Assembly: GCF_036250695.1 (NCBI RefSeq)
Contig: NZ_CP109427.1
Span: 2,170,001-2,234,000 of the forward strand
Length of the DNA stretch: 64,000 bases
DNA from: Streptomyces sp. NBC_01497
GTDB taxonomy: Bacteria; Actinomycetota; Actinomycetes; Streptomycetales; Streptomycetaceae
Reading direction: 5' to 3'
Made by a program: the position numbers and the translations under genes. A model generated the notes under the pieces. That model saw nothing but the letters and a program-made list of their open reading frames with translations, was not told the DNA's origin and ran no database searches. Shown here piece by piece: positions 42,137 to 53,234 of the stretch. Numbering within the stretch: the first letter of the stretch is position 1; each line of letters opens with the position of its first letter.

Positions 42137-43024
42137 ATGACAAGGACGCTCGTCGATGACCACAGGCTGCACCGGAACACGGCCGGGGCGACGGCCCCCG
42201 CGACGCCGAGCACGGCGGACGTGAGCCCGCGCGCCCGGGACTGGGCCGAGATCCAGGAACGGATGCTGGTGCCACTGTACGAAGCGGTCTACGAGCGGCT
42301 CGAAGTACGTGACGGGACCAGGCTGCTCGCCCTGGGCTGCGGCTCGGGGCTCTCGCTGCTGATGGCGGCCACGCTCGGCGCGGAGGTCACCGGCGTGGAC
42401 TTCGACCGGGACCTGCTGGCACTCGCGGACGAACGGCTGCACGCGGGCGCCGTGCCCGCGCGGCGCCCTGCCGCGGCGGCGCCCGGACGACTGCTGCGGC
42501 CGGAGCGCATCGCGGACGCCTCGGAGCCCGGTCGCGCGCCGTTCGACGTCATCACCTCCTTTCCCCCGGTGGGGTCGGTGGCCGGGGACACCAGGAGTCC
42601 GGCGCCCGCGCTGCGCCGGGCGGTGCCGCTGGCCCGGCAGGGCGCGCCCGTCGTGCTGGCCGGCTGGGGGCCGCCGGAGCGGTGCGCCGCGGCCGGGGTG
42701 CTGGGGGTGGCAGGGCGGCTGACGGACCGGCTGCGCAAGGGCACGTGGCGGCCCGCCCACCGGGACGACCTGGAGGACGTGGCAGCGCGTGCCGGCCTGC
42801 GGCCCGACGGCTCCGGGAGGGTGTCCTGCCCGTTCGGCTACGCGGACCTGGCGAGCGCGGTGCGCGGCATGCTCTCGACCGGCGTGTTCGACGGAGCGGT
42901 CCGGGCCACCGACAGGCGCCAGGTGGAGAAGGAGATGGCGGAGGCGCTCCATCCGCACGTGCGCAAGGACGGCACGGTGTGGATGCCGAACGTCTTCCGG
43001 TACCTGATCGCCCGCGTGCCGTGA
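42137..43024 (+). CDS. SAM-dependent methyltransferase
   Basis: This 295-residue protein has a class I methyltransferase fold. Motif I is LLALGCGSGLSLLMAATLGA near residues 63-82, followed by VTGVDFDRDLLALADERL. A motif IV-like segment (FDVITSFPPVGSVAGD) and the strand APVVLAGWGPPERCAA come next. An acceptor cannot be named. It diverges from proS across 211 bases and precedes the yhf operon by 500 bases. Read on its own strand it has good codon use. No ribosome binding site is clear before the ATG. Confidence 0.82.
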   Translation: MTRTLVDDHRLHRNTAGATAPATPSTADVSPRARDWAEIQERMLVPLYEAVYERLEVRDGTRLLALGCGSGLSLLMAATLGAEVTGVDFDRDLLALADERLHAGAVPARRPAAAAPGRLLRPERIADASEPGRAPFDVITSFPPVGSVAGDTRSPAPALRRAVPLARQGAPVVLAGWGPPERCAAAGVLGVAGRLTDRLRKGTWRPAHRDDLEDVAARAGLRPDGSGRVSCPFGYADLASAVRGMLSTGVFDGAVRATDRRQVEKEMAEALHPHVRKDGTVWMPNVFRYLIARVP

Positions 43025-43525
43025 ACCGCGGGCGCCCGATGACCGGACGCGCTTGCGGATGCTCCCCCGGCCCGGTGCCACCCGGATCACGCCGGCGGGT
43101 ACCGCGTGCGGCGCGATGGCGAGTGGTCGGGCTCGCGTGCCCGTCCGAGATGTCGCGGCCGGACCAGGCTCGTGGCGGCCGGCTCCGGCGAGCATGGGGT
43201 GACCGGCCCCGGCTCGCGCCGGTCGTGGCCGGCTCCGCCCCGGCCGGTGGCGACCGGGCCCATCTCGCGGATGCCCGAAGCGGAGGCCACGGGTGGTGGC
43301 GCTGAGCCCGCAACCGCTCAGGCGGCCGCTGGAGCGGGCACCCCCCAACCACTTTCTCGGCTGCCCTGTCGCAGGTCGATCCGGTGGCCCGTGGCGGCCG
43401 GTCAGCGGTGAGCCGCCAGCCGAGCGGAGCGGCGGGCGGGACTCCACCGATGAGCACGCGAGGTCGTCGAACATTCCCTCGAAAGAGTCCTTGTCAGTAT
43501 CCGGGATTCTGGTTACTGTCTCCGT
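43025..43525. other. 501-base gap upstream of the yhf operon
   Basis: No gene is supported. The stretch 43130-43290 contains repeated units such as GGCCGGCTCCG and GACCGG/GGCCGG (for example at 43171, 43217, 43231), which look like decayed or low-complexity sequence. The final 60 bases hold the yhfZ promoter and operator. Confidence 0.5.
43491..43519 (+). promoter_or_regulatory. yhfZ promoter overlapping a yhf operator (leaderless)
   Basis: TTGTCA (43491-43496) and TACTGT (43514-43519) are separated by exactly 17 bases, a good sigma-70-type promoter. The GTG start of yhfZ lies only six bases after the -10 box, so the mRNA is probably leaderless. The -35/-10 interval contains half-sites TCAGTATCC (43494-43502) and GGTTACTGT (43511-43519), which match the inverted repeat found before yhfY. 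A repressor bound here would block the promoter. Confidence 0.7.
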
Positions 43526-44464
43526 GTGACCGGACTTGACGAGCGTTTCCTGACGCGCAACGGCCTCGCGGCGCGACAGCTCGCGGTTCTCCTGCTGAAC
43601 CACGAGCCGGACACGCGGCTGCCCCGCGTGCGGGACTTCGCCGAGGAACTCGGCGTGGGAAACGGCACCGTCCAGGCCGCGTTGCAGCTGCTGGAACACG
43701 CCGGGGCGATAGAGACGACGGCGCGCGGCCACCTGGGCACGTTCCTCGTCCGCTCCGACCGGTCCATACTCTGGCGCCTGTCCGGGCTCGGCACTCTGCT
43801 CGCCGCCATGCCACTGCCGTACTCCCGGCGCTACGAGGGACTCGCGACGGGGCTGCGCCGCGCCTTCGAGGCGGCGGGCGCACCCTTCGCGATCACGTTC
43901 ATGCGGGGCGCGGGGGCGCGGACGACGGCGCTGCTCGACGGGAAGGTCGACCTGGTGGTGCTCTCCCGCTTCGCCGCCGACCGGCTGATCGAGGAGCACG
44001 CCGTGGAACTGGTGGCGGATCTGGGGCCCGCCACCTACGTCGGGGCGCACGGACTGCTGGTGCGCCATGGACTGGACGTCGACATGTCGGGGCTCAGAGT
44101 CGCGGTCGACTACGCGTCGGAGGATCAGCGCATGCTGGCGGAGCGCGTCTTCGCCGACCGTGCCGACATCACCTGGGTCGAGGCGTCGTACATGCAGCTG
44201 GGTGAGGTCTTCCAGCACGACATGGCCGACGCCACGGTCTGGAGTCTGGACGAGGCGCCCGGTCGGCTCGGGCCCGGCGTCGATGTCCTCCCGCTCGGTG
44301 ACGAGGTCACACGCGATCTCGCGCTGCGCAATTCGAGTGCGGCGATCATCGGAAGGACGGACGGAGCCAAGGCCCTCGCGGCCGTGCGTGACGCGCTGGA
44401 CTTCCCGACGATCGCCCACTGTCAGAACGAGGTGCTCCAGGGCAAGCGCACGCCCTGGTACTGA
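43526..44464 (+). CDS. yhfZ: YhfZ family regulator (winged helix plus ligand-binding domain)
   Basis: This 312-residue protein matches the YhfZ family. It has an N-terminal HTH of GntR-like or HTH_41 type (LLNHEPDTRLPRVRDFAEEL then GVGNGTVQAALQLLEHAGAI) and a C-terminal domain with a periplasmic-binding-protein-like layout (PYSRRYEGLATGLRRAFEAA, then LRVAVDYASEDQRMLAERVF). In Escherichia coli yhfZ lies at the end of the uncharacterised yhfS-yhfZ operon; here it is first. It is the likely regulator of the operon and of itself. No ribosome binding site precedes the GTG, in agreement with a leaderless mRNA. The ligand is unknown. Confidence 0.85.
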   Translation: MTGLDERFLTRNGLAARQLAVLLLNHEPDTRLPRVRDFAEELGVGNGTVQAALQLLEHAGAIETTARGHLGTFLVRSDRSILWRLSGLGTLLAAMPLPYSRRYEGLATGLRRAFEAAGAPFAITFMRGAGARTTALLDGKVDLVVLSRFAADRLIEEHAVELVADLGPATYVGAHGLLVRHGLDVDMSGLRVAVDYASEDQRMLAERVFADRADITWVEASYMQLGEVFQHDMADATVWSLDEAPGRLGPGVDVLPLGDEVTRDLALRNSSAAIIGRTDGAKALAAVRDALDFPTIAHCQNEVLQGKRTPWY

Positions 44465-44535
44465 CGTGGAGCGGGGCCCCCCGCGCATACTCGTTGCGGA
44501 GAAGGCCCCACTGCGAGCTCAAAATACAAAATACG

Positions 44536-44567
44536 GGTTACTGAACATTCAGAAACGCTCAGTAACC
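44536..44567 (+). promoter_or_regulatory. yhf operator: perfect 9-base inverted repeat before yhfY
   Basis: GGTTACTGA (44536-44544) and TCAGTAACC (44559-44567) are perfect inverted repeats with centres 23 bases apart. A half-site GGTTACTG and the octamer GAACATTC recur in the yhfZ promoter region (43511 and 43469). The upstream stretch AAAATACAAAATAC is unusually AT-rich for this genome. The element sits 58 bases before the yhfY start, between the regulator and the structural genes. It is the probable YhfZ binding site and a second promoter. Confidence 0.7.
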
Positions 44568-44624
44568 GGTGCGGCGACCGCGACCCGTGGAAGCGCCGAA
44601 GCGACCCGAAGGAGGAGGAACGCC

Positions 44625-44999
44625 ATGGACGACCAACTCGCCCTCCGCATCCAGCTGTTCCGCGAGAGCGGCCAGGTGCGTCCGGAGGTCGCCGCCTTCG
44701 TCACGGAGGAACTGACGGCCCTGGCCGACGGGGGCGACACCGTCACGGAGGACACGGCGGGCATGCTCACCAGCCATCTGATGATGGCCCTGACCCGCCT
44801 GCTGGACGGCGAGCCCATCGCCGCCTTCCCCACGGACGAACAGGTGACGGCCGAGCTCGACGGCCATCCGGACGCTGTGGCACGGGCCCGCGAGGTCTCC
44901 GGCCGCGCCGAACGCGCGCTGGGCGCGGCCCTGCCCGACTCGGAGATCAACTTCCTGGCCCTGCACCTGGCCGTCCTCGCCCAGCACTCCCCCGCCTGA
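44625..44999 (+). CDS. yhfY: YhfY family PRD-domain protein
   Basis: This 124-residue protein is a single PTS regulation domain (PRD). Both histidines typical of PRDs are visible: LTSHLMMALTRLLDGEPI near residue 50 and INFLALHLAVLAQH near 112. In PRD regulators such histidines are phosphorylated by PTS components. The protein has no DNA-binding domain of its own, so it may transmit PTS state to a partner, perhaps YhfZ. The ATG has GGAGGAGG six bases upstream, a very strong ribosome binding site. It is the first gene after the operator. Confidence 0.85.
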   Translation: MDDQLALRIQLFRESGQVRPEVAAFVTEELTALADGGDTVTEDTAGMLTSHLMMALTRLLDGEPIAAFPTDEQVTAELDGHPDAVARAREVSGRAERALGAALPDSEINFLALHLAVLAQHSPA

Positions 45000-45072
45000 C
45001 CCGCTCCCGCGGTCCCCCGCCCCACCCGAGCAGCCGACCCAGCAGCTCGCGCGAGAAGAGAAGGAACCAGTC

Positions 45073-45429
45073 ATGACGAAGATCCTCACCGGCGGCGTCG
45101 GCAAGACCGAGGTCGCGAAGACCGTCTCCGACCTCGGCATCGAAGGCGTCACCGTCACGGTCTCCAACGACATGGACGCGGCGATGAAGCTGCGCGCCCG
45201 TCAGGCCGACTACTACCTGGGCACCTGCCACACCGGCGCGGGCGCCTCCCTCGGCGTGCTGCTCGGCCTCGTCGGAGCGGCCAAGTGCCACACGTTCGGC
45301 CGCTCCGTGCCGACCGAGGAGAAGATCACCGCGCTGCTCGCCGAAGGCAAGACCGTCTTCGGCTTCGCGATCGACCAGATCGACGTCATCGCCCCCCTCA
45401 TGGCACGCGCCATCGCGGCGCGGGGCTGA
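45073..45429 (+). CDS. yhfU: YhfU family protein (DUF2620)
   Basis: This protein of 118 residues belongs to DUF2620, the YhfU family. It opens with MTKILTGGVGKTEVAKTVSD, followed by EGVTVTVSNDMDAAMKLRAR, DYYLGTCHTGAGASLGVLLG and GFAIDQIDVIAPLMARAI. The fold resembles small PTS IIB-like or glycine-rich regulatory domains, but it has no established function. It is soluble and lies just before the membrane protein gene yhfT, which suggests a partner of the transporter. RBS AAGGAA is six bases before the ATG. Confidence 0.88.
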   Translation: MTKILTGGVGKTEVAKTVSDLGIEGVTVTVSNDMDAAMKLRARQADYYLGTCHTGAGASLGVLLGLVGAAKCHTFGRSVPTEEKITALLAEGKTVFGFAIDQIDVIAPLMARAIAARG

Positions 45430-45466
45430 CCGCCGGAAACCCGACAGGGCACGAAGGAGTGACCCC

Positions 45467-46936
45467 GTGAGCACAGTGCTCGCAGCGAGCGCCCAGCTGG
45501 ACTTCTCGCTGACCCAGAAACTGACCGTCATCGTGCTGGCCGCGCTCACCGCGCTCATCTCGCACATGGCACTGGCCGTCTTCAACGACGGCACCCGCCC
45601 CTTCATGCTGGAGTTCATCCAGGGGCGCGCCACGCGCGCGGCGACCGCGGCGGTCGCGTTCGGGCTCTCGGCCGGCTTCATCTTCGGCCTGGGCGCACCG
45701 ATGGCGCTGTCGTCCGGGGTGCTCAATCCGTGGTTGCTGTTCCTGCCCACCGACATCCTCGGCATCCTCGCCATCCGCAAGTGGATGGCGGTGCTGCTCG
45801 GCGGTGGCTGGGGCGCGATCGTGGTCTTCGGCCTCAACGGCGCCAACAACGTGGCGCACAAACTGCCCGTGGACTTCCTGACGGCCATGCAGCAGATGTC
45901 CACGCCCATCCTGTTCCTGTTCACGCTGTTCCCGGTGATCGCGGTGGCCAAGCAGTTCGGCCGGGCGCGGGGCGGCATCACGGCCGTCGTGGAACTGGCC
46001 TTCGTGATCATGACGATGAAGCTCTGGCCGAGCGTCTTCGCGGGTTCCCTCGCGATGGCCGCCGGTGTGCTGATGCTCATCGGGTTCGCCGTGCGCAAGG
46101 ACCTCCTCCAGCGCAAGGCCGACCGCGCGGAGGCGGCCGAGGCGGCCGAGGCGGCAGCGGCAGCCGCGCCGGAGCCCCCCGTGGGCGGCATCGGCGGGAG
46201 CGGGGGCGGGAGCGGCGGCGCCGTCCTGACCCGCACCGACGGCGGGGGCGCCGTGGCCACCAGCACGGCCACGGAGGAGGAAGCGGATCTCGAAGACCCG
46301 ATGGCCTCCCTGTTCAGCGCGAGCGCGACCAGGCTCCGCAGGCACCTGCCGCTGTTCATGCTGCTGGGCGCCGGCGTCTGCATGATCGCGCAGATGCACA
46401 TATTCGGCGGTGGCGAGGCGACGAGCTTCCTGATCGCCAAGGGGCACGTCGGCGAGGCGGCGCAGGTCGACTTCTACCGCGTCTTCGGCTTCATCCCGCT
46501 GATCGCGACCACCGCGCTGGCCTCCGGCACGTACGGCATCGCGGGCCTGACGCTCGTGTACCCGATCGGGTACCTGATGCCGAACCCGATCCTGGCGGCC
46601 GTCGCCGGCGCCTTGGTCCTCGCCCTGGAGATCCTCGGCCTGTCGTCCATCGGCAAGGTCCTCGGCAGGCTCCCGAGCGTCCGGGACTCCTCGGAGCACC
46701 TGCGCAGCGCCATCACGGACACCCTGCAACTGGCCATCCTGTTCGGCTCGCTGCTCGCGGCGAACGTGATGGGCGGCGGGCTCGGCATCCTCGTCGTCGG
46801 CGGGCTCTACCTCATCAACGAGGCGATGGGCCGGCCCGTGGTGCGGATGGCGGCGGCCCCCGCGGCGGTGATCGTCGGCGGGATCCTCCTCAACGTCCTG
46901 TACTGGCTCGACCTGTTCACCCCTGTGAAGGGCTGA
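45467..46936 (+). CDS. yhfT: YhfT family membrane transporter
   Basis: This 489-residue protein has about twelve membrane helices in two blocks, split by a cytoplasmic loop of about 80 residues at 215-290. That loop is Ala/Glu-rich and then Gly/Ser-rich (EAAEAAEAAAAAAPEPP and GGIGGSGGGSGGA). Recognisable YhfT segments are NDGTRPFMLEFIQGRATRAA, PMALSSGVLNPWLLFLPTDI, LNGANNVAHKLPVDFL, and the C-terminal GLGILVVGGLYLINEAMGRP. It should import (or export) the substrate of the operon. GTG has GAAGGAG seven bases upstream. The loop insertion makes it longer than E. coli YhfT as I recall it. Confidence 0.88.
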   Translation: MSTVLAASAQLDFSLTQKLTVIVLAALTALISHMALAVFNDGTRPFMLEFIQGRATRAATAAVAFGLSAGFIFGLGAPMALSSGVLNPWLLFLPTDILGILAIRKWMAVLLGGGWGAIVVFGLNGANNVAHKLPVDFLTAMQQMSTPILFLFTLFPVIAVAKQFGRARGGITAVVELAFVIMTMKLWPSVFAGSLAMAAGVLMLIGFAVRKDLLQRKADRAEAAEAAEAAAAAAPEPPVGGIGGSGGGSGGAVLTRTDGGGAVATSTATEEEADLEDPMASLFSASATRLRRHLPLFMLLGAGVCMIAQMHIFGGGEATSFLIAKGHVGEAAQVDFYRVFGFIPLIATTALASGTYGIAGLTLVYPIGYLMPNPILAAVAGALVLALEILGLSSIGKVLGRLPSVRDSSEHLRSAITDTLQLAILFGSLLAANVMGGGLGILVVGGLYLINEAMGRPVVRMAAAPAAVIVGGILLNVLYWLDLFTPVKG

Positions 46937-46970
46937 GGGCCGCTCCCCGGCCCGGAAAGGCACCCGCACC

Positions 46971-47915
46971 ATGCAACACCACCTGCGTACCGTCACCGGG
47001 CCGCTGTCCGTGTCGGAGGTACGGGGCCCGGTGCTCGCCCACGAGCACCTGGTCCTGGACCTCGACCGCGCGGGCGACGGGGCGGCCGTCCTCGACCCGG
47101 AGGCGCACGCGCCCGCCGTGGCCGGGGAACTCTCCGCCCTGCGCGACGAGTTCGGCCTCTCCGCCGTCGTCGAGCTGACGTGCCGCGGCATGGGACGCGA
47201 TGCACGCGCCCTGGCCCGGCTGTCGGCCGGGACCGATGTCGCGGTCGTCGCGGCCACCGGCTGGTACTACGAGCCGTTCCACCCCGCCGAAGTCGGCGAC
47301 AGCGACACCGGCCGCCTCACGGAGACCCTCCTTGAGGAGATCGAGGCGGGCATCGGCACGACGGGCGTCCGGCCCGGCGTCATCGGTGAGATCGGCAGCC
47401 ATGGGGACCTGCCGAGCCCGGCGGAGACACGGGTGCTGATCGCGTCCGCCCGCGCCGCGTGCGCGGGCGGGCTGTCACTGGCGACCCACGCCCAGCTGGG
47501 CCGGGGCGGCCTCGCCCAGCTGGACATCCTCACCGGGGCGGGCCTGGCGCCGCACCGGATCTCCGTCGGTCACCAGGACCTGCTGGACGATCCGGCGGTC
47601 CATCGCGCGCTGGCCGCCGAGGGCGCGTACGTCGCCTTCGACACCGTCGGGAAGGCGAGCTACCAGAGCGACGGGACGCGGCTGCGGCTGCTGCTCGACC
47701 TGCTCGACGCGGGCCACGCGGACCGGGCGCTGCTGAGCTGCGACATCTCCCGCCACGGCTACCTGGCGGCCGAGGGCGGACAGGGCTACGGACACCTGTT
47801 CCGGTCCTTCCTGCCCAAGGCGCGCGCGGCGGGTGTCGACGACGACCTCGTGGACCTCATCACGCGCCGCAATCCCCTGCGCTTCCTCACCGGCGCAGAT
47901 GTCGAGGAGATCTGA
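46971..47915 (+). CDS. php: Phosphotriesterase homology protein Php
   Basis: This 314-residue TIM-barrel hydrolase belongs to the amidohydrolase superfamily. The metal ligands are visible: HEH in LAHEHLVLDLD near residues 24-26, Glu in GVIGEIGSHGD, His in SLATHAQLG, His in ISVGHQDLL, and Asp in LLSCDISRHGY. The bridging ligand is Glu, as in E. coli Php, rather than the carboxylated Lys of phosphotriesterase and most lactonases. Family members hydrolyse lactones or phosphoesters; E. coli Php has no proven physiological substrate. It is one of the structural enzymes of the operon. Confidence 0.9.
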   Translation: MQHHLRTVTGPLSVSEVRGPVLAHEHLVLDLDRAGDGAAVLDPEAHAPAVAGELSALRDEFGLSAVVELTCRGMGRDARALARLSAGTDVAVVAATGWYYEPFHPAEVGDSDTGRLTETLLEEIEAGIGTTGVRPGVIGEIGSHGDLPSPAETRVLIASARAACAGGLSLATHAQLGRGGLAQLDILTGAGLAPHRISVGHQDLLDDPAVHRALAAEGAYVAFDTVGKASYQSDGTRLRLLLDLLDAGHADRALLSCDISRHGYLAAEGGQGYGHLFRSFLPKARAAGVDDDLVDLITRRNPLRFLTGADVEEI

Positions 47916-47916
47916 C

Positions 47917-49092
47917 ATGCCGCACGGCACACCCCCCACACCCCCCACCTCCACCGCATCCACCGCCGGCACGGCCGGCGCGCGGCCGTCCGGGGCCACG
48001 CTCCCCGAGACCCATCCCCTGCCCACCGTGCCGCTGGAGGACGCCGTCCGCGCGCAGTACCGGCTGCTGGAGTGCACGGCGGCACACTTCGAGGGCCCGC
48101 AGCTGTTCGCCGCGGACACCGGCGTCGTACCGGGCCTCGGCAGGCCCCGTACGACCGCCGGGGTGGAAGCGGTCCTCGCCGACTTCCTGGGCGCCGAGGA
48201 CGCCGCGCTCGTCCAGGGCGCCGGCACCGGTGCCATCCGGGCCGCGCTCCAGGCCGGCGTCTCCGCGGGCGAACCGCTGCTCATCCACCGGGCGCCCGTG
48301 TACCGCACGACCGCCGTCACACTGCGCGGCCTCGGCGTGGAAAGCGTCGAGGTCGACTTCAACGACACCGCCGCCCTCGAATCGGCTCTCGGCACCGGCC
48401 GGTTCCGGTGGGCCTACGTACAGCACAGCAGGCAGCGCCTCACCGACGCCTACGATCCCGCGGTCGTGCTGGCCGCCTGCGCCGCCGCCGGGGTGCGCAC
48501 GGTCGTGGACGACAACTACGCGGTGCTGCGCGTCCCGGCCTCGGGAGTCGAACTGGGCGCCGACGCCTCCTGCTTCTCCCTGTTCAAGCTGCACGGTCCG
48601 GAGGGTGTGGGTGCCGTCGTGGGCTCCCGCGACCTGGTCGAGCGGGTCCGCGCGGACAACTACTCGGGTGGCGGCCAGGTCCAGGGTCACCAGGCGCTCG
48701 ACGCGCTGCGCGCGCTGACCCACGTGCCCGTCATGTGGGCGCTGCAGTCGCGGGTGGGCGCCGAGATCGCCGAACGGCTGGCCGCCGGGGAGGTCCCGGG
48801 CGTCGCCGACGTACGCCTGGCGAACGTCCAGGACCGCTGCCTGATCGTCCTGCTCGACGAGCCCGTGGCGCGGGAACTCCCCGCCGTCGCCGCCCGGTAC
48901 GGCGCGGCTCCCTACCCGGTGGGATCCAACTCCCGTTACGAGATCGCGCCGCTCTTCTACCGCATGTCCGGCTCGTCCCTCGACGACGCACCCGAACTCG
49001 CCGACCGGGCCGTACGGATCAACCCGATGAGGGCCGGCGCGGACCTCGTGATCGAGATCCTGCGCCGCTCCCTGCACGACCTGAAGGGCTGA
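47917..49092 (+). CDS. yhfS: YhfS family PLP-dependent enzyme (aminotransferase fold)
   Basis: This 391-residue enzyme is a fold type I PLP enzyme of the YhfS family. Motifs include ALVQGAGTGAIRAALQAGVS around residues 103-122, VVDDNYAVLRVPASG with the conserved Asp that contacts the pyridine nitrogen, and the Schiff-base Lys in SLFKLHGPEGVGAVVG. The reaction is unknown; the fold allows transamination, beta- or gamma-elimination, or aldol cleavage. The ATG has GAGGAG seven bases upstream, partly inside the php 3' end, and one base separates the two reading frames. It ends two bases before yhfX. Confidence 0.88.
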   Translation: MPHGTPPTPPTSTASTAGTAGARPSGATLPETHPLPTVPLEDAVRAQYRLLECTAAHFEGPQLFAADTGVVPGLGRPRTTAGVEAVLADFLGAEDAALVQGAGTGAIRAALQAGVSAGEPLLIHRAPVYRTTAVTLRGLGVESVEVDFNDTAALESALGTGRFRWAYVQHSRQRLTDAYDPAVVLAACAAAGVRTVVDDNYAVLRVPASGVELGADASCFSLFKLHGPEGVGAVVGSRDLVERVRADNYSGGGQVQGHQALDALRALTHVPVMWALQSRVGAEIAERLAAGEVPGVADVRLANVQDRCLIVLLDEPVARELPAVAARYGAAPYPVGSNSRYEIAPLFYRMSGSSLDDAPELADRAVRINPMRAGADLVIEILRRSLHDLKG

Positions 49093-49094
49093 CC

Positions 49095-50258
49095 GTGTTC
49101 CTCGACACCGTCCTCACCCGTAATCCCTCCCTCGTCGACACCGCCGCGGCGCTCCACCGCTCGGGCGTCATTCCGCCCGACACGTATGTACTGGACGCCG
49201 ACGCCGTCGAGGCGAACGCCGCGCTGCTCGCCACCGAGGCCGAGCGCCTCGGGCTCACGCTCTGGTTCGTCGTCAAGCAACTGGGCCGCAACCCCGAGTT
49301 GATCCGTGCGATCTCCCGGCACATCCCGGACTTCGCCGCGATCGATCCCATCGAGGCCCGGCTGCTGCACGCCACGGGCGCCCGCGCCGGCAACCTCGGC
49401 CACCTGGTGCAGATCCCGCCGCGCGACCTGCCGGAGATGCTCGCCTGGCGCCCCGAGGCCGTCACGGTCTTCGACCTCGCCAACGCCCGCGCCGTCTCGG
49501 CCGCCGCGACGGAGCTCGGCCTGGTGCAGGACGTCCTCGTACGGCTCGAAGGCGCGCCCGGTTCCGTCTATCCCGGTCAGGAGGGCGGGGTGCCCCTGGA
49601 GCAGCTCGACGAGTTCGCCGCGCGGGCCGAGCGGCTTCCCGGCATCCGGATCGCGGGGATCACCGCGTTCCCGTGTGTGCTGTGCGACCCGGTCAGCGGC
49701 CTGCCCGCCCCGACCCCCACGTTCGAACTGGCCCTCAAGGCCAAGGACCTGCTCGCCTCACGGGGCCATGGGGACATGAAGCTGAGCGCACCGAGCGCCA
49801 CCTCCATGGCGTCGCTGCCGCTCCTCGCCGAACTGGGTGCCACGCACGGCGAACCCGGCCACTCCCTGACCGGCACCACCCCGCTGCACGCCGTCGATCC
49901 GCACCAGCCGGAACAGCCGGCGTACGTGTACGTCACCGAGGTGGCGCACACCCTCGCGGACGGGCGCCCCGCCCTGCACGGTGGCGGGTTCTACGCGCGC
50001 GCCGGGATCCGCGAGGCGCTGCTGCCCACGAGCGGCGTCCGGCTGGCGGTGCATCCCTCACCTGCCGAGAACATCGACTACTACCGGCTGCTCGACGCGC
50101 CCGGGCGGGCCGACGACGCACGCGTCGGCGACACCGCCGTACTCGCCTTCCGCACCCAGATCTTCGTCACCCGCTCGACGGTCGCCGTCGTCTCCGGCCT
50201 GTCCACCGGCTCGCCCCGGCTCAGCGGCCTGTACGACGCACTCGGCCGGGCGCTGTAG
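49095..50258 (+). CDS. yhfX: YhfX family PLP-dependent enzyme (alanine racemase-like fold)
   Basis: This 387-residue enzyme has the fold type III (alanine racemase-like) PLP barrel. The Lys of TLWFVVKQLGRNPELIRAI probably forms the Schiff base. DVLVRLEGAPGSVYPGQEGG and GGVPLEQLDEF follow, and HGGGFYARAG and TEVAHTLADGRPAL are conserved in the family. YhfX-like proteins may racemise or otherwise act on amino-acid substrates. Its start is GTG two bases after the yhfS stop, with AAGGG six bases upstream; the two PLP enzymes are clearly coexpressed. Confidence 0.88.
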   Translation: MFLDTVLTRNPSLVDTAAALHRSGVIPPDTYVLDADAVEANAALLATEAERLGLTLWFVVKQLGRNPELIRAISRHIPDFAAIDPIEARLLHATGARAGNLGHLVQIPPRDLPEMLAWRPEAVTVFDLANARAVSAAATELGLVQDVLVRLEGAPGSVYPGQEGGVPLEQLDEFAARAERLPGIRIAGITAFPCVLCDPVSGLPAPTPTFELALKAKDLLASRGHGDMKLSAPSATSMASLPLLAELGATHGEPGHSLTGTTPLHAVDPHQPEQPAYVYVTEVAHTLADGRPALHGGGFYARAGIREALLPTSGVRLAVHPSPAENIDYYRLLDAPGRADDARVGDTAVLAFRTQIFVTRSTVAVVSGLSTGSPRLSGLYDALGRAL

Positions 50259-50277
50259 CCGGGAAGGAGCACACACC

Positions 50278-51495
50278 ATGAGCAGGACCGTCATCGTCGT
50301 CCTCGACGGATTCGGCGTCGGCGCCATGCCCGACGCCGGCGCCCTGCGGCCCGGCGACATCACCGCCGACACCTGCGGGCACGTCCTGGACGGGTGCCAC
50401 GAGCTGATGGGGCGCCCGCTGCGGCTGCCCGGCCTCGGGGCACTCGGTCTGGGCGTCGTCCATCCGCACCGGGACATGGCGCCCGCGACGCCGCTGCCGG
50501 TATCGGTGGGCAGGGCGGCCCTCGGGTATCCGGGCGCGGACACGTTCGCGGGCCATCAGACCATGATGGGCGCGGACTTCAGCCGCGTCACGGTGGCCCG
50601 GCTCGGTGACCACCTGCCCGAGGTGACAGGCGCCCTGAAGGCGGCAGGGCACACGGTGTCGCTGCTCGGCGGCAGGCCGCTGCTGATCGTCGACGACGCC
50701 GTACTGGTCCACGACAACCTGGAGGCCGACCCCGGCATCAACTGGAACGCGTCGGCCCGCCTGGAGGACCTGCCCTTCGAGGGTGTCCTCGCGATCGCCC
50801 GTACGGTACGCACGGTCGCGCCGGTCGCCCGCGTGATCGCGGTCGGTGGGCACGCGGACGGCCCGCTGGCCGGGTTCGTACGTGACGGCGACGGCGGCAC
50901 GATCGGTCTGGACACACCTGCCACCGGCTTCTACCGCAACGGCGGCCTGGAAGTGCGGCATCTGGGCGCGGACATCGACCACACCCGGCAGTTGCCGGAC
51001 CTCGCGGCGCGCTCCGGCGTCCCCGTGACCCTGATCGGCAAGGCCGCCGACGTCCTCGCCTGCGAGGCGGCGGAGCGGCGCCCCGCCGTCGCGACGGCCG
51101 AGGTCGTCGCCCACACCCTGGACGCCGTGCGGGGCGCGGGCGCGGATGCCCTCGTGGTGGCCAATGTCCAGGAGACGGACCTCGCGGGGCACCAGCAGGA
51201 CACCGAGCGGTACGGGCGGGTGCTGGAGGAGGCGGACGCCGGCCTGTTCGAGCTGATCGGTCTGCTGGACACCCCGGGCGACCTGCTGATCGTCACCGGC
51301 GACCATGGCAACGACCCCACCATCGGGCACGCGTACCACACCCGGGAGTTCGTTCCCGTGCTGATCCATCGGCCCGGGGCGGGCGGCACGGAGATACGGC
51401 CGGACGCCCCGACCCTCGCCGACGTCGGCGCCATCGCCGCGGCTTCCCTCGGCCTGGACACCCGGACACTGGCGAACGGCTCGGCCACCCGCTGA
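50278..51495 (+). CDS. yhfW: YhfW family phosphopentomutase-like enzyme
   Basis: This 405-residue protein is of the alkaline phosphatase/phosphopentomutase superfamily. The N-terminal metal motif is VVLDGFGVGAMPDAGALRPG, the catalytic Thr region is FAGHQTMMGADFSR, and the C-terminal metal residues are in IVTGDHGNDPTIGHAYHTRE. Phosphopentomutase interconverts ribose 1- and 5-phosphate; YhfW differs enough that its substrate may not be a pentose phosphate. The ATG has GGAAGGAG upstream (nine bases). It is the last gene of the operon and ends 132 bases before a very strong terminator. Confidence 0.88.
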   Translation: MSRTVIVVLDGFGVGAMPDAGALRPGDITADTCGHVLDGCHELMGRPLRLPGLGALGLGVVHPHRDMAPATPLPVSVGRAALGYPGADTFAGHQTMMGADFSRVTVARLGDHLPEVTGALKAAGHTVSLLGGRPLLIVDDAVLVHDNLEADPGINWNASARLEDLPFEGVLAIARTVRTVAPVARVIAVGGHADGPLAGFVRDGDGGTIGLDTPATGFYRNGGLEVRHLGADIDHTRQLPDLAARSGVPVTLIGKAADVLACEAAERRPAVATAEVVAHTLDAVRGAGADALVVANVQETDLAGHQQDTERYGRVLEEADAGLFELIGLLDTPGDLLIVTGDHGNDPTIGHAYHTREFVPVLIHRPGAGGTEIRPDAPTLADVGAIAAASLGLDTRTLANGSATR

Positions 51496-51627
51496 CGCGG
51501 TGCGGTGCGGGGCGTGCCCGGGGCCCGGCCCCGCGCCGCCCAGCTCTGCGGCCTGCCCTACGGCGCCTCGGCGCCTCTCCCGGGAGTCCCGTCGGCGAAG
51601 GAGGCCGGAACCCCTGGACGCACGAAC

Positions 51628-51670
51628 GGGGGGCACCTGCCGGACGGTGTGCGTCCGGCAGGTGCCCCCC
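51628..51670. terminator. Very strong bidirectional terminator between yhfW and ffh
   Basis: Perfect 18-base arms, 51628-51645 and 51653-51670, enclose a seven-base loop. The hairpin lies between the convergent yhfW and ffh genes, 132 bases after the yhfW stop and 20 bases before the ffh stop. It would stop transcription from both sides. Confidence 0.9.
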
Positions 51671-51689
51671 GCTGTGGATCCCGAACCGG

Positions 51690-53234
51690 TCAGCCCATGA
51701 ACTTCTTGAACTCATCGGGCAGTTCGAACGGCTTGCTCGGCTCCGGCTCCTGCGTCGCCGTCCCGTCGAGGGCCGCCTGCTCCCTGCGGGCGAGCGCGGC
51801 TTGCTCGTCGGCCTTGCGCTTCATCGGGTTGCCCGAACGCTGCTTGCCCTTGGCCGACTTCTGCTTCTTCTTCTGCCTGCCGGGGCCGCCGCCCATGCCC
51901 GGCATGCCGGGCATCCCCGGCATGCCGCCGCCCTGCGCCATCCGCGACATCATCTTCCGGGCTTCGAAGAACCGCTCCACCAGGTTCTTCACCGCGCCGA
52001 CCTCGACACCGGAACCACGGGCGATACGGGCGCGGCGCGAACCGTTGATGATCGTGGGCTCGGCGCGCTCGCCCGGCGTCATCGACTTGATGATCGCGGC
52101 CGTGCGGTCGACGTCCCGCTCGTCGAGGTTGTTGATCTGCTCCTTCATCTGCCCCATGCCCGGCAGCATCCCGAGCAGCTTGGACAGCGAGCCCATCTTC
52201 CTGACCTGCTCCATCTGGGACAGGAAGTCGTCGAGCGTGAACTCCTTCGGGCCCTTCGCCAGTTTCGCGGCCATCTTCTCGGCCTCGTCCTGGCTGAAGG
52301 TCTGTTCGGCCTTCTCGATGAGGCTGAGCAGGTCACCCATGTCGAGGATGCGGGAGGCCATGCGGTCCGGGTGGAACGCGTCGAACTCGTCCAGCTTCTC
52401 GCCGTTGGAGGCGAACATGATCTGCTTGCCGGTCACATGCGCGATGGACAGCGCGGCACCACCGCGCGCGTCACCGTCGAGCTTGGAGAGCACGACACCG
52501 TCGAAACCGACGCCGTCGCGGAACGCCTCCGCGGTGTTGACCGCGTCCTGGCCGATCATCGCGTCGACGACGTAGAGGACCTCGTCGGGCGAGACGGCGT
52601 CGCGGATGTCCGCGGCCTGCCGCATCAGCTCCTGGTCGATGCCCAGGCGGCCGGCCGTGTCCACGATCACCACGTCGTGGACCTTGTCCCGCGCGTACGT
52701 GATCGAGTCCTTGGCGACCTTGACCGGGTCGCCCACACCGTTGCCCGGCTCCGGGGCGTAGACGGCGACGCCGGCGCGGCCGGCCACGACGGACAGCTGG
52801 GTGACCGCGTTGGGCCGTTGGAGGTCGGCCGCCACGAGCAGCGGCGAGTGACCCTGCTTCTGCAGCCACAGACCGAGCTTGCCCGCCAGGGTGGTCTTGC
52901 CCGCGCCCTGGAGGCCCGCCAGCATGATCACGGTCGGTGCCTGCTTCGCGAAGCGCAGGCGCCGGGTCTCGCCGCCGAGGATGCCGACGAGTTCCTCGTT
53001 GACGATCTTGACGACCTGCTGCGCCGGGTTCAGCGCGCGGGAGACCTCCTCACCCGCGGCCCGCTCTTTGATCTGGCTGATGAAGGCCCGGACGACGGGC
53101 AGCGCCACGTCGGCTTCGAGCAGGGCGATACGGATCTCGCGTGCCGTGGCGTCGATGTCCTCCGGGCTGAGGCGCCCTTTGCCCCGGAGGCTCTTGAAGG
53201 TGGCTGCGAGGCGGTCGGAGAGAGTGTCGAACAC
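51690..53234 (-). CDS. ffh: Signal recognition particle GTPase Ffh
   Basis: This 514-residue protein binds 4.5S RNA and signal sequences of nascent proteins. The N-domain has FDTLSDRLAATFKSLRGKGR. The G-domain has G1 LAGLQGAGKTTLAGKLG, VAADLQRPNAVTQL, DTAGRLGIDQELM and SKLDGDARGGAAL. The Met-rich M-domain shows GMLPGMGQMKEQIN and ARGSGVEVGAVKNLVERFFE. The C-terminus has a Met/Gly tract (GGGMPGMPGMPGMGGG) and a Lys-rich stretch. The GTG start agrees with the conserved N-terminus; the longer frame is Arg-rich and antisense to nothing real. Confidence 0.96.
   Translation of the reverse strand: MFDTLSDRLAATFKSLRGKGRLSPEDIDATAREIRIALLEADVALPVVRAFISQIKERAAGEEVSRALNPAQQVVKIVNEELVGILGGETRRLRFAKQAPTVIMLAGLQGAGKTTLAGKLGLWLQKQGHSPLLVAADLQRPNAVTQLSVVAGRAGVAVYAPEPGNGVGDPVKVAKDSITYARDKVHDVVIVDTAGRLGIDQELMRQAADIRDAVSPDEVLYVVDAMIGQDAVNTAEAFRDGVGFDGVVLSKLDGDARGGAALSIAHVTGKQIMFASNGEKLDEFDAFHPDRMASRILDMGDLLSLIEKAEQTFSQDEAEKMAAKLAKGPKEFTLDDFLSQMEQVRKMGSLSKLLGMLPGMGQMKEQINNLDERDVDRTAAIIKSMTPGERAEPTIINGSRRARIARGSGVEVGAVKNLVERFFEARKMMSRMAQGGGMPGMPGMPGMGGGPGRQKKKQKSAKGKQRSGNPMKRKADEQAALARREQAALDGTATQEPEPSKPFELPDEFKKFMG

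Follow-up and report, generated by a model that had tools for sequence, protein, structure and literature searches.

The 64,000-nucleotide stretch of DNA from Streptomyces sp. NBC_01497 that was analysed here (the window) contains a copy of the yhf operon, an unexplained block of the E. coli K-12 chromosome that recurs in several phyla. The genome of the strain measures 9.08 Mb, and the closest named relatives of its YhfU and YhfT are from Streptomyces. All eight yhf genes are located on the plus strand at 43526-51495, contiguous and separated by short gaps or overlaps, and each matches the family that a first-pass annotation of this DNA had assigned to it:

43526..44464, + strand: yhfZ, regulator with a GntR/HTH_41-type DNA-binding domain and a YhfZ_C ligand-binding domain (NF041241, 337.7 bits, cut-off 260; PDB 2ozz)
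44625..44999, + strand: yhfY, stand-alone PRD protein, PRD being the regulation domain of the phosphotransferase system, PTS (PRD PF00874, 28.3 bits, cut-off 23)
45073..45429, + strand: yhfU, DUF2620 protein with a predicted RpiB-like fold and Cys52 in the motif C-x-T/S-G-x-G (DUF2620, E 6.7e-41)
45467..46936, + strand: yhfT, multi-helix membrane protein, probable permease (PF10797, E 4e-148; predicted local distance difference test, pLDDT, of the model 80.5)
46971..47915, + strand: php, phosphotriesterase-family metallohydrolase (PTE, E 1.6e-56; PDB 4lef, 1bf6)
47917..49092, + strand: yhfS, pyridoxal phosphate (PLP) enzyme of fold type I, Cys/Met metabolism and class-V-like (YhfS-like_C, Cys_Met_Meta_PP and Aminotran_5; PDB 4j8l, E 5e-96)
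49095..50258, + strand: yhfX, PLP enzyme of fold type III (YhfX-like_C and Ala_racemase_N; PDB 4kbx, E 2e-80)
50278..51495, + strand: yhfW, phosphopentomutase-like member of the metalloenzyme (alkaline phosphatase) superfamily (NF009049, PRK12383, 430.6 bits, cut-off 254)

The top PDB sequence matches are deposited as YhfX (4kbx), YhfS (4j8l), phosphotriesterase homology protein (4lef, 1bf6) and yhfZ (2ozz). The proposal that the operon corresponds one for one to that of E. coli holds for gene content but not for gene order, which is Z-Y-U-T-php-S-X-W in the window and Z-Y-X-W-php-U-T-S in E. coli. The order of the window is also found in two Bacillota loci (L078 and L145) and, with an extra amidase gene, in Cetobacterium, and the E. 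coli order is departed from in other lineages as well.

Distribution and core of the operon

The comparison is based on 113 loci selected for yhfT, which are not independent of one another. E. coli is represented by three entries (L002, L005, L009) and Vibrio halioticoli by two (L004, L068), L060/L070 and L062/L076 each share a contig, and other same-species pairs occur. The genus and phylum of the G-numbered genomes were inferred via named relatives.

Within the genus Streptomyces, YhfT (PF10797) scores above the cut-off in 19 of 150 genomes, that of the window included, which does not bear out the earlier view that a complete set is unusual in this genus. The 18 other Streptomyces loci all have the eight genes, and the order of the window is kept in 18 of the 19 rows; the odd one, L121, reflects over-extended frames. 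A phylum-wide actinobacterial sample of 396 genomes from 236 genera yielded two genomes with YhfT, both of the window's genus, and no other actinobacterial genus among those sampled has a yhf operon. One further genome, G113, was rejected as a carrier: its match is weak (20.5 bits) and the stretch of it that was read (L123) contains no yhf genes. Among the Bacillota, 12 of 398 genomes in a sample centred on Thalassobacillus, the centre genome included, have YhfT above the cut-off, and one weak match falls below it. A scan of genome contigs, covering the best 80 of 205 relatives, adds Enterobacterales, Vibrionales, Bacillota and one Sebaldella (Fusobacteriota), and the yhf clusters of Cetobacterium and Vibrio halioticoli are on plasmid-collection records. 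Conserved clustering across phyla, for which the first-pass annotation proposed to look, is found in Enterobacterales, Vibrionales, Bacillota, Fusobacteriota and Streptomyces. The Streptomyces operon is no oddity; it belongs to a system that is widespread and lacks a name.

Not all members are equally constant. At loci with full flanks, yhfS, which is the most often absent of the eight genes, is present in 28 of 38 enteric and 14 of 16 Bacillota loci and in none of the 23 from Vibrionaceae; yhfW is present in 32 of the 38 enteric loci. Two Photobacterium species, P. frigidiphilum (L060/L070) and P. lipolyticum (L062/L076), have two yhf clusters each, the second of which is reduced to Z-php-U-T. 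The gene yhfU, on the other hand, is on the strand of yhfT in all 113 loci and is its immediate neighbour in 110; in the remaining three, the yhfT frame is split (L050, L080) or yhfS stands in between (L147). Of 396 Bacillota genomes, 12 have DUF2620, and these are exactly the ones in which YhfT exceeds its cut-off. Since yhfU and yhfT occur together throughout these samples while the other members are looser, they form the core of the operon, which fits one functional unit. Split frames were observed in a few copies (yhfT and yhfS in L050, yhfW in L059 and L153, and yhfU, yhfT and yhfW in L080), where the genes are either decaying or misassembled.

YhfU takes a predicted RpiB (ribose-5-phosphate isomerase B) fold. 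Both fold and profile favour RpiB and lend no support to YhfU as a plain EIIB, the B component of PTS enzyme II. Its cysteine loop aligns with the CGTG loop of E. coli RpiB, and Cys52, Gly55 and Gly57 are each conserved in 113 of 113 aligned sequences; in the RpiB/LacAB isomerases, the base is a Cys (or Glu) in such a GxG loop. The RpiB/LacAB family model PF02502 does not match YhfU in a Pfam search. What looks like a fused YhfU in L147 (398 residues, DUF2620 confined to 278-392) is probably the result of upstream over-extension of the frame.

Conserved residues, PTS neighbours and accessory genes

A link to the PTS is suggested by YhfY, which was detected in 103 of the 113 loci. Only matches above 35 bits were counted, and unmatched frames of 121-128 residues between yhfZ and yhfU in L077, L081 and L082 may be divergent copies. 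His51 and Arg58 are each invariant in the 103 aligned copies. The position of the second PRD histidine is mostly Asn (68/103), with His in 31/103. The PRD score of the window protein lies between that of the Cetobacterium copy (41.5) and that of E. coli YhfY (20.2, below the cut-off).

In three Bacillota loci, a gene for a general PTS protein is located directly behind yhfW: enzyme I (EI) in L073 and HPr in L148 and L079. The EI sequence of L073 holds SHSAI and the HPr of L148 holds GLHARP, which we take to be the respective active-site marks. Because the genomes carry further copies of these proteins (four EI in G945, five HPr in G902 and eleven HPr in G947), the copies adjacent to yhfW look like dedicated extras. 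EI and HPr are both present in 21 of 21 yhf genomes tested. Their presence is a weak test, however, because 7 of 14 named control genomes have both too. Among 26 Vibrionaceae loci, 11 (about 8 without duplicates) have an EIIC gene no more than 5 kb from the cluster. Beside the cluster of one of the Vibrionaceae, a lactose/cellobiose-type EIIB-EIIC-EIIA set with a DUF7916 gene was observed (L074:4258-7153), and similar blocks of PTS and DUF7916 genes occur in L004, L056, L060, L062, L067, L068, L070 and L076 of the same family.

The enzymes have retained catalytic-type residues. In Php, His24, His26, Glu140, His173, His201 and Asp258, presumably the metal ligands, are conserved in 108 to 110 of 110 rows. 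Lys224 of YhfS is found in all 71 aligned copies and Lys61 of YhfX in 108 of 109. In YhfW, position 89 is Thr in 92, Ser in 9 and a gap in 3 of 104 rows, so that all 101 rows with a letter have Thr or Ser. Asp10 is kept in 100 of these rows, Asp301 in 104, and His305, Asp342, His343 and His354 in 103 each. We assume that Thr89 is the counterpart of the phospho-acceptor Thr85 of the phosphopentomutase DeoB, and that the metal is bound by residues of this conserved group. The idea that YhfW might be a mutase without nucleophile, with Ala91 at the place of the catalytic Thr, was abandoned, as the alignment pairs Thr89 instead. The view of the first-pass annotation is upheld in that the genes form one conserved operon, which combines a regulator that senses a ligand with a membrane protein and enzymes of catabolic type.

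Additional genes are associated with some of the clusters. Of 20 loci from Bacillota and Fusobacteriota, 10 have an amidase-like gene, with weak PF01425 matches in the two that were scanned; the product of this frequent ninth member (L003, L058, L146-L153) is about 340-390 residues long and weakly resembles amidases. A NagB-like gene is found in 4 of the 113 loci, a ComB-type phosphatase once and a KdgM porin once. In 4 of 13 enteric loci without detected yhfS, some of which are on contigs that end nearby, a PAP2 or acid phosphatase gene is located 29-60 bp behind yhfT. These accessory genes are compatible with an amide- or amino-bearing, sugar-like, at times phosphorylated substrate, without naming it.

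A parallel arrangement exists in the clusters of the EF_0829-0839 type. In Hafnia (L131, 6521-14504) nine genes encode a PRD protein, EF_0830 (RpiB-like, PF14272), EF_0831, DUF4311, DUF4310, an EF_0837 amidohydrolase, a DgaE-family lyase, a DagF aldolase and a PRD-EIIA regulator, and frames of the same kind are found in Citrobacter (L130, 1565-7101). By their names, the DgaE and DagF models refer to 6-phosphate substrates, although the DgaE equivalog cut-off is missed (370 versus 600 bits). Neither a kinase nor a stand-alone enzyme II is present among the nine L131 genes, to which the scan was confined, and profile comparison reveals no likeness of DUF4310 or DUF4311 to YhfT.

Regulatory sites and origin of the operon

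Upstream of yhfZ and of yhfY, the following sites were noted:

43491..43519, + strand: promoter-like site of yhfZ, TTGTCA - 17 nt - TACTGT, 6 nt upstream of the GTG start (read from the sequence)
44522..44544, + strand: second copy of the promoter-like/operator box, before yhfY (strict pattern search and sequence reading)
44536..44567, no strand given: inverted repeat GGTTACTGA..TCAGTAACC with 9-bp arms, before yhfY, overlapping the second box

The spacer of the yhfZ site contains the box TATCC(A/G)G(A/G)AT(C/T)CTG, and other Streptomyces have similar boxes ahead of yhfZ. With a strict pattern, one or more boxes are detected in 17 of the 19 Streptomyces loci, that is in 16 of the 18 others, the exceptions being L116 and L117. 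The pattern matches the Z-Y gap in 12 of 19 loci, the window among them; the yhfZ site of the window deviates from the pattern and is hence missed by it. The boxes found are always before yhfZ or in the Z-Y gap. Since the pattern was derived from sites that it later matched, the real test is the count of zero elsewhere in about 385 kb. Several boxes fall within machine-called, over-extended yhfZ or yhfY frames, before the starts taken as real. The shared box is probably an operator for YhfZ that overlaps two promoters. The -35 and -10 elements proposed for 43491..43519 are an interpretation of the letters, and as the site ends so close to the GTG, the yhfZ transcript is perhaps leaderless.

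The inverted repeat GGTTACTGA..TCAGTAACC was discarded as a general operator, being present only in the window and, in altered form, in L119. It is listed by the scan as terminator-like on the minus strand; two such sites were counted in 10 kb against 1.6 expected. The 18-bp terminator that had been placed after yhfW finds no support: its GC-rich pairing is no better than that of shuffled sequence (z -0.52; folding is equal or better in 61 of 200 shuffles) and the terminator scan recognises no T-tailed terminator at this site. Rfam models at gathering thresholds have no match within the window.

As to the genomic site, yhfW adjoins ffh in 9 of the 19 Streptomyces loci, as in the window; in 8 the operon is elsewhere and in 2 the contig ends too early. 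Ten of the 131 Streptomyces genomes without an over-cut-off match were inspected. Both ffh and the methyltransferase-like neighbour (42137-43024, named by eye) are present in all ten, and none has a yhf gene in the stretch of 14.5 to 15 kb that was read. As the flanks occur without yhf genes and the site varies, the operon is a discrete block that was gained and often lost, or moved.

In a FastTree phylogeny of concatenated YhfT, YhfX and YhfW, built from 65 of the 102 loci having all three after reduction at 88% identity, Streptomyces forms one clade (support 1.0) with a long stem of 1.18. This clade groups with that of Bacillota and Cetobacterium (support 0.89), apart from the Proteobacteria. 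The first-pass annotation had left the source between proteobacteria and firmicutes, and the tree thus places the Streptomyces copies among the latter, the Bacillota. Transfer into Streptomyces, its other suggestion, is plausible in view of the patchy presence, the tree position and the flanks without operon in 10 of 10 genomes. The long stem and the native GC content (0.722 in the operon versus 0.721 in the rest of the window) indicate, however, that any such event was old, and the ffh site is common to 9 of 19 loci.

Proposed function and comparison with known systems

The best reading, to which we give an even chance, is that of a PTS-linked, substrate-induced operon for uptake and catabolism. 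YhfZ would sense the compound and govern two promoters via the shared box. YhfT would move the compound across the membrane with YhfU as obligate soluble partner, and HPr would phosphorylate YhfY on His51, by which YhfY may report or hand on PTS phosphate. In the cytoplasm, Php could hydrolyse a bond of the amide, lactone or ester type, the PLP chemistry of YhfS and YhfX could act on an amino group, and YhfW could shift a phosphate on the sugar-like product towards central metabolism. Gene content, co-occurrence, the YhfU fold, conservation of catalytic-type residues and PTS neighbours were computed directly; every catalytic step, the operator role and the phosphorylation of YhfY are inferred. 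As a guess, the substrate could be an amino- or amide-bearing sugar or sugar acid.

By a rough estimate that assumes one gene per kb and excludes L082 and L003, three such PTS neighbours would turn up among 18 genomes with a chance of about 2e-6 if one flank is counted and 1.4e-5 if both are. Several points weigh against the PTS-linked reading. The neighbour test was conceived after the hits had been seen. Genes for EI and HPr are common, and as L073 and L079 belong to sister lineages, the neighbour evidence may reflect two events, for which P is about 1e-3. A Pfam scan of the window operon detects no canonical EIIA, EIIB or EIIC, YhfY being a PRD protein. YhfU has no profile match to the two EIIB proteins tested, and with smaller alignments its profile match to RpiB is weak (probability 2.3). 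YhfT finds no support as a UlaA-like EIIC, having no significant profile match to UlaA, the sole EIIC compared; its structure search gave no confident known fold, which excludes nothing. A sigma-70 consensus scan counted no promoter in 42500-52500. Finally, among the papers listed from the literature library searched, no experimental study was recognised as addressing yhf function. In passages of three papers, YhfZ is among the knockouts of a peptide-resistance screen (PMC12147183), YhfW is one of a list of proteins and is also represented by a strain deleted for it (PMC7730263), and yhfW is a weak gap-filling candidate with E 0.47 (PMC3423039).

In an alternative that we consider somewhat doubtful, YhfU would itself isomerise sugar phosphates, and YhfT would be a secondary transporter of the ordinary kind. 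A sugar phosphate freed by Php and the PLP enzymes would then pass to YhfW and on to YhfU, the tie to the PTS being regulatory only, via YhfY. The RpiB fold and catalytic-type cysteine loop of YhfU, the Thr/Ser and metal-ligand residues retained in YhfW and the NagB-like isomerases of some clusters are in line with this. However, YhfU lacks SDHxG and HND and is shorter than RpiB, and the EF_0829 cluster has a YhfU relative but different enzymes. YhfU is moreover kept where yhfX, yhfW and yhfS are absent from the cluster (the Z-php-U-T clusters L070 and L076), which fits a transport partner better. The first-pass annotation saw in the locus a transferred catabolic operon for an amino- and phosphate- or lactone-bearing compound, for which the PRD protein and PTS neighbours would be incidental. 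The patchy presence, the Bacillota-like tree position and the enzyme set agree with that view, but a PRD protein with an invariant histidine in 103 of 113 loci and the extra EI/HPr copies behind yhfW in three loci make it improbable. Least of all do we believe that, instead of being catabolic, the operon serves to produce, salvage or sense a signal such as a lactone or an amino compound carrying phosphate, in which case YhfT would act as an exporter or a flippase. YhfT does have a scattered, weak likeness to several transporter types, and Php weakly matches the lactonase model NF045706 (38.1 bits, under its cut-off); the ligand-sensing regulator, the phosphatase and KdgM porin neighbours and the PTS neighbours indicate nutrient uptake instead.

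The PTS-linked reading has a bolder extension, which we regard as rather unlikely. YhfY, YhfU and YhfT might constitute a new class of phosphorylating permease, in which phosphate would pass from HPr to YhfY His51 (as EIIA), then to YhfU Cys52 (as EIIB) and to the substrate in YhfT (as EIIC); the EF_0829-0833 proteins would then represent another permease of this class, built with a different membrane part. This role of the module of PRD, RpiB-like and membrane proteins is worth testing because the EF_0829 module recurs with no kinase found despite the 6-phosphate names of its enzymes. If true, one phosphocarrier of this PTS would derive from a regulator domain and the other from the fold of a sugar-phosphate isomerase, and the model would account for the finding of no kinase in either cluster, though YhfW, the DgaE-like protein and DagF look built for phosphorylated substrates. 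With YhfY His51 and YhfU Cys52, candidate phosphorylation residues are named that allow direct bench tests of an uncharacterised operon; should this extension hold, phosphorylating transporters would gain a new class. New with respect to the first-pass annotation are the RpiB-type fold of DUF2620, the tie to the PTS, the promoter-like box shared by yhfZ and yhfY and the module in common with the EF_0829 cluster.

Among known systems, the yhfZ-Y-X-W-php-U-T-S operon of E. coli K-12 (b3383-b3376) has the same eight genes one for one; apart from the difference in order, it sits between frlR and trpS, whereas the window operon is beside ffh. YhfW shares with DeoB the metal-ligand residues and a Thr/Ser at the phospho-acceptor place, but it is under the equivalog cut-off (TIGR01696, 115.7 versus 341.2 bits) and has its own model, NF009049 (PRK12383). 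In RpiB, the SDHxG motif, an HND segment with the ring-opening His and C-terminal Arg residues have roles of their own. YhfU has the RpiB fold and the Cys in the GxG loop in common with the RpiB/LacAB family (PF02502); it has GG(L/V)x(K/R) for SDHxG and mostly (E/D)GK for HND, is without the C-terminal Arg residues and counts 118 residues against 149 in E. coli RpiB. With the PTS permeases, the operon shares a PRD protein, an obligate soluble cysteine protein together with a membrane protein, and EI/HPr behind yhfW in the three Bacillota loci, although the tests made detect no homology of the yhf proteins to EIIA, EIIB or EIIC. The EF_0829-0839 cluster, also known as AHA_3910-3917, has in common with yhf a stand-alone PRD protein, a small RpiB-like cysteine protein, membrane proteins (DUF4311 and DUF4310, by sequence), an amidohydrolase and a PLP enzyme. 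It differs in having a DgaE-like lyase and a DagF aldolase where yhf has YhfS, YhfX and YhfW, and in its regulator, which, unlike that of yhf, carries PRD and EIIA domains.

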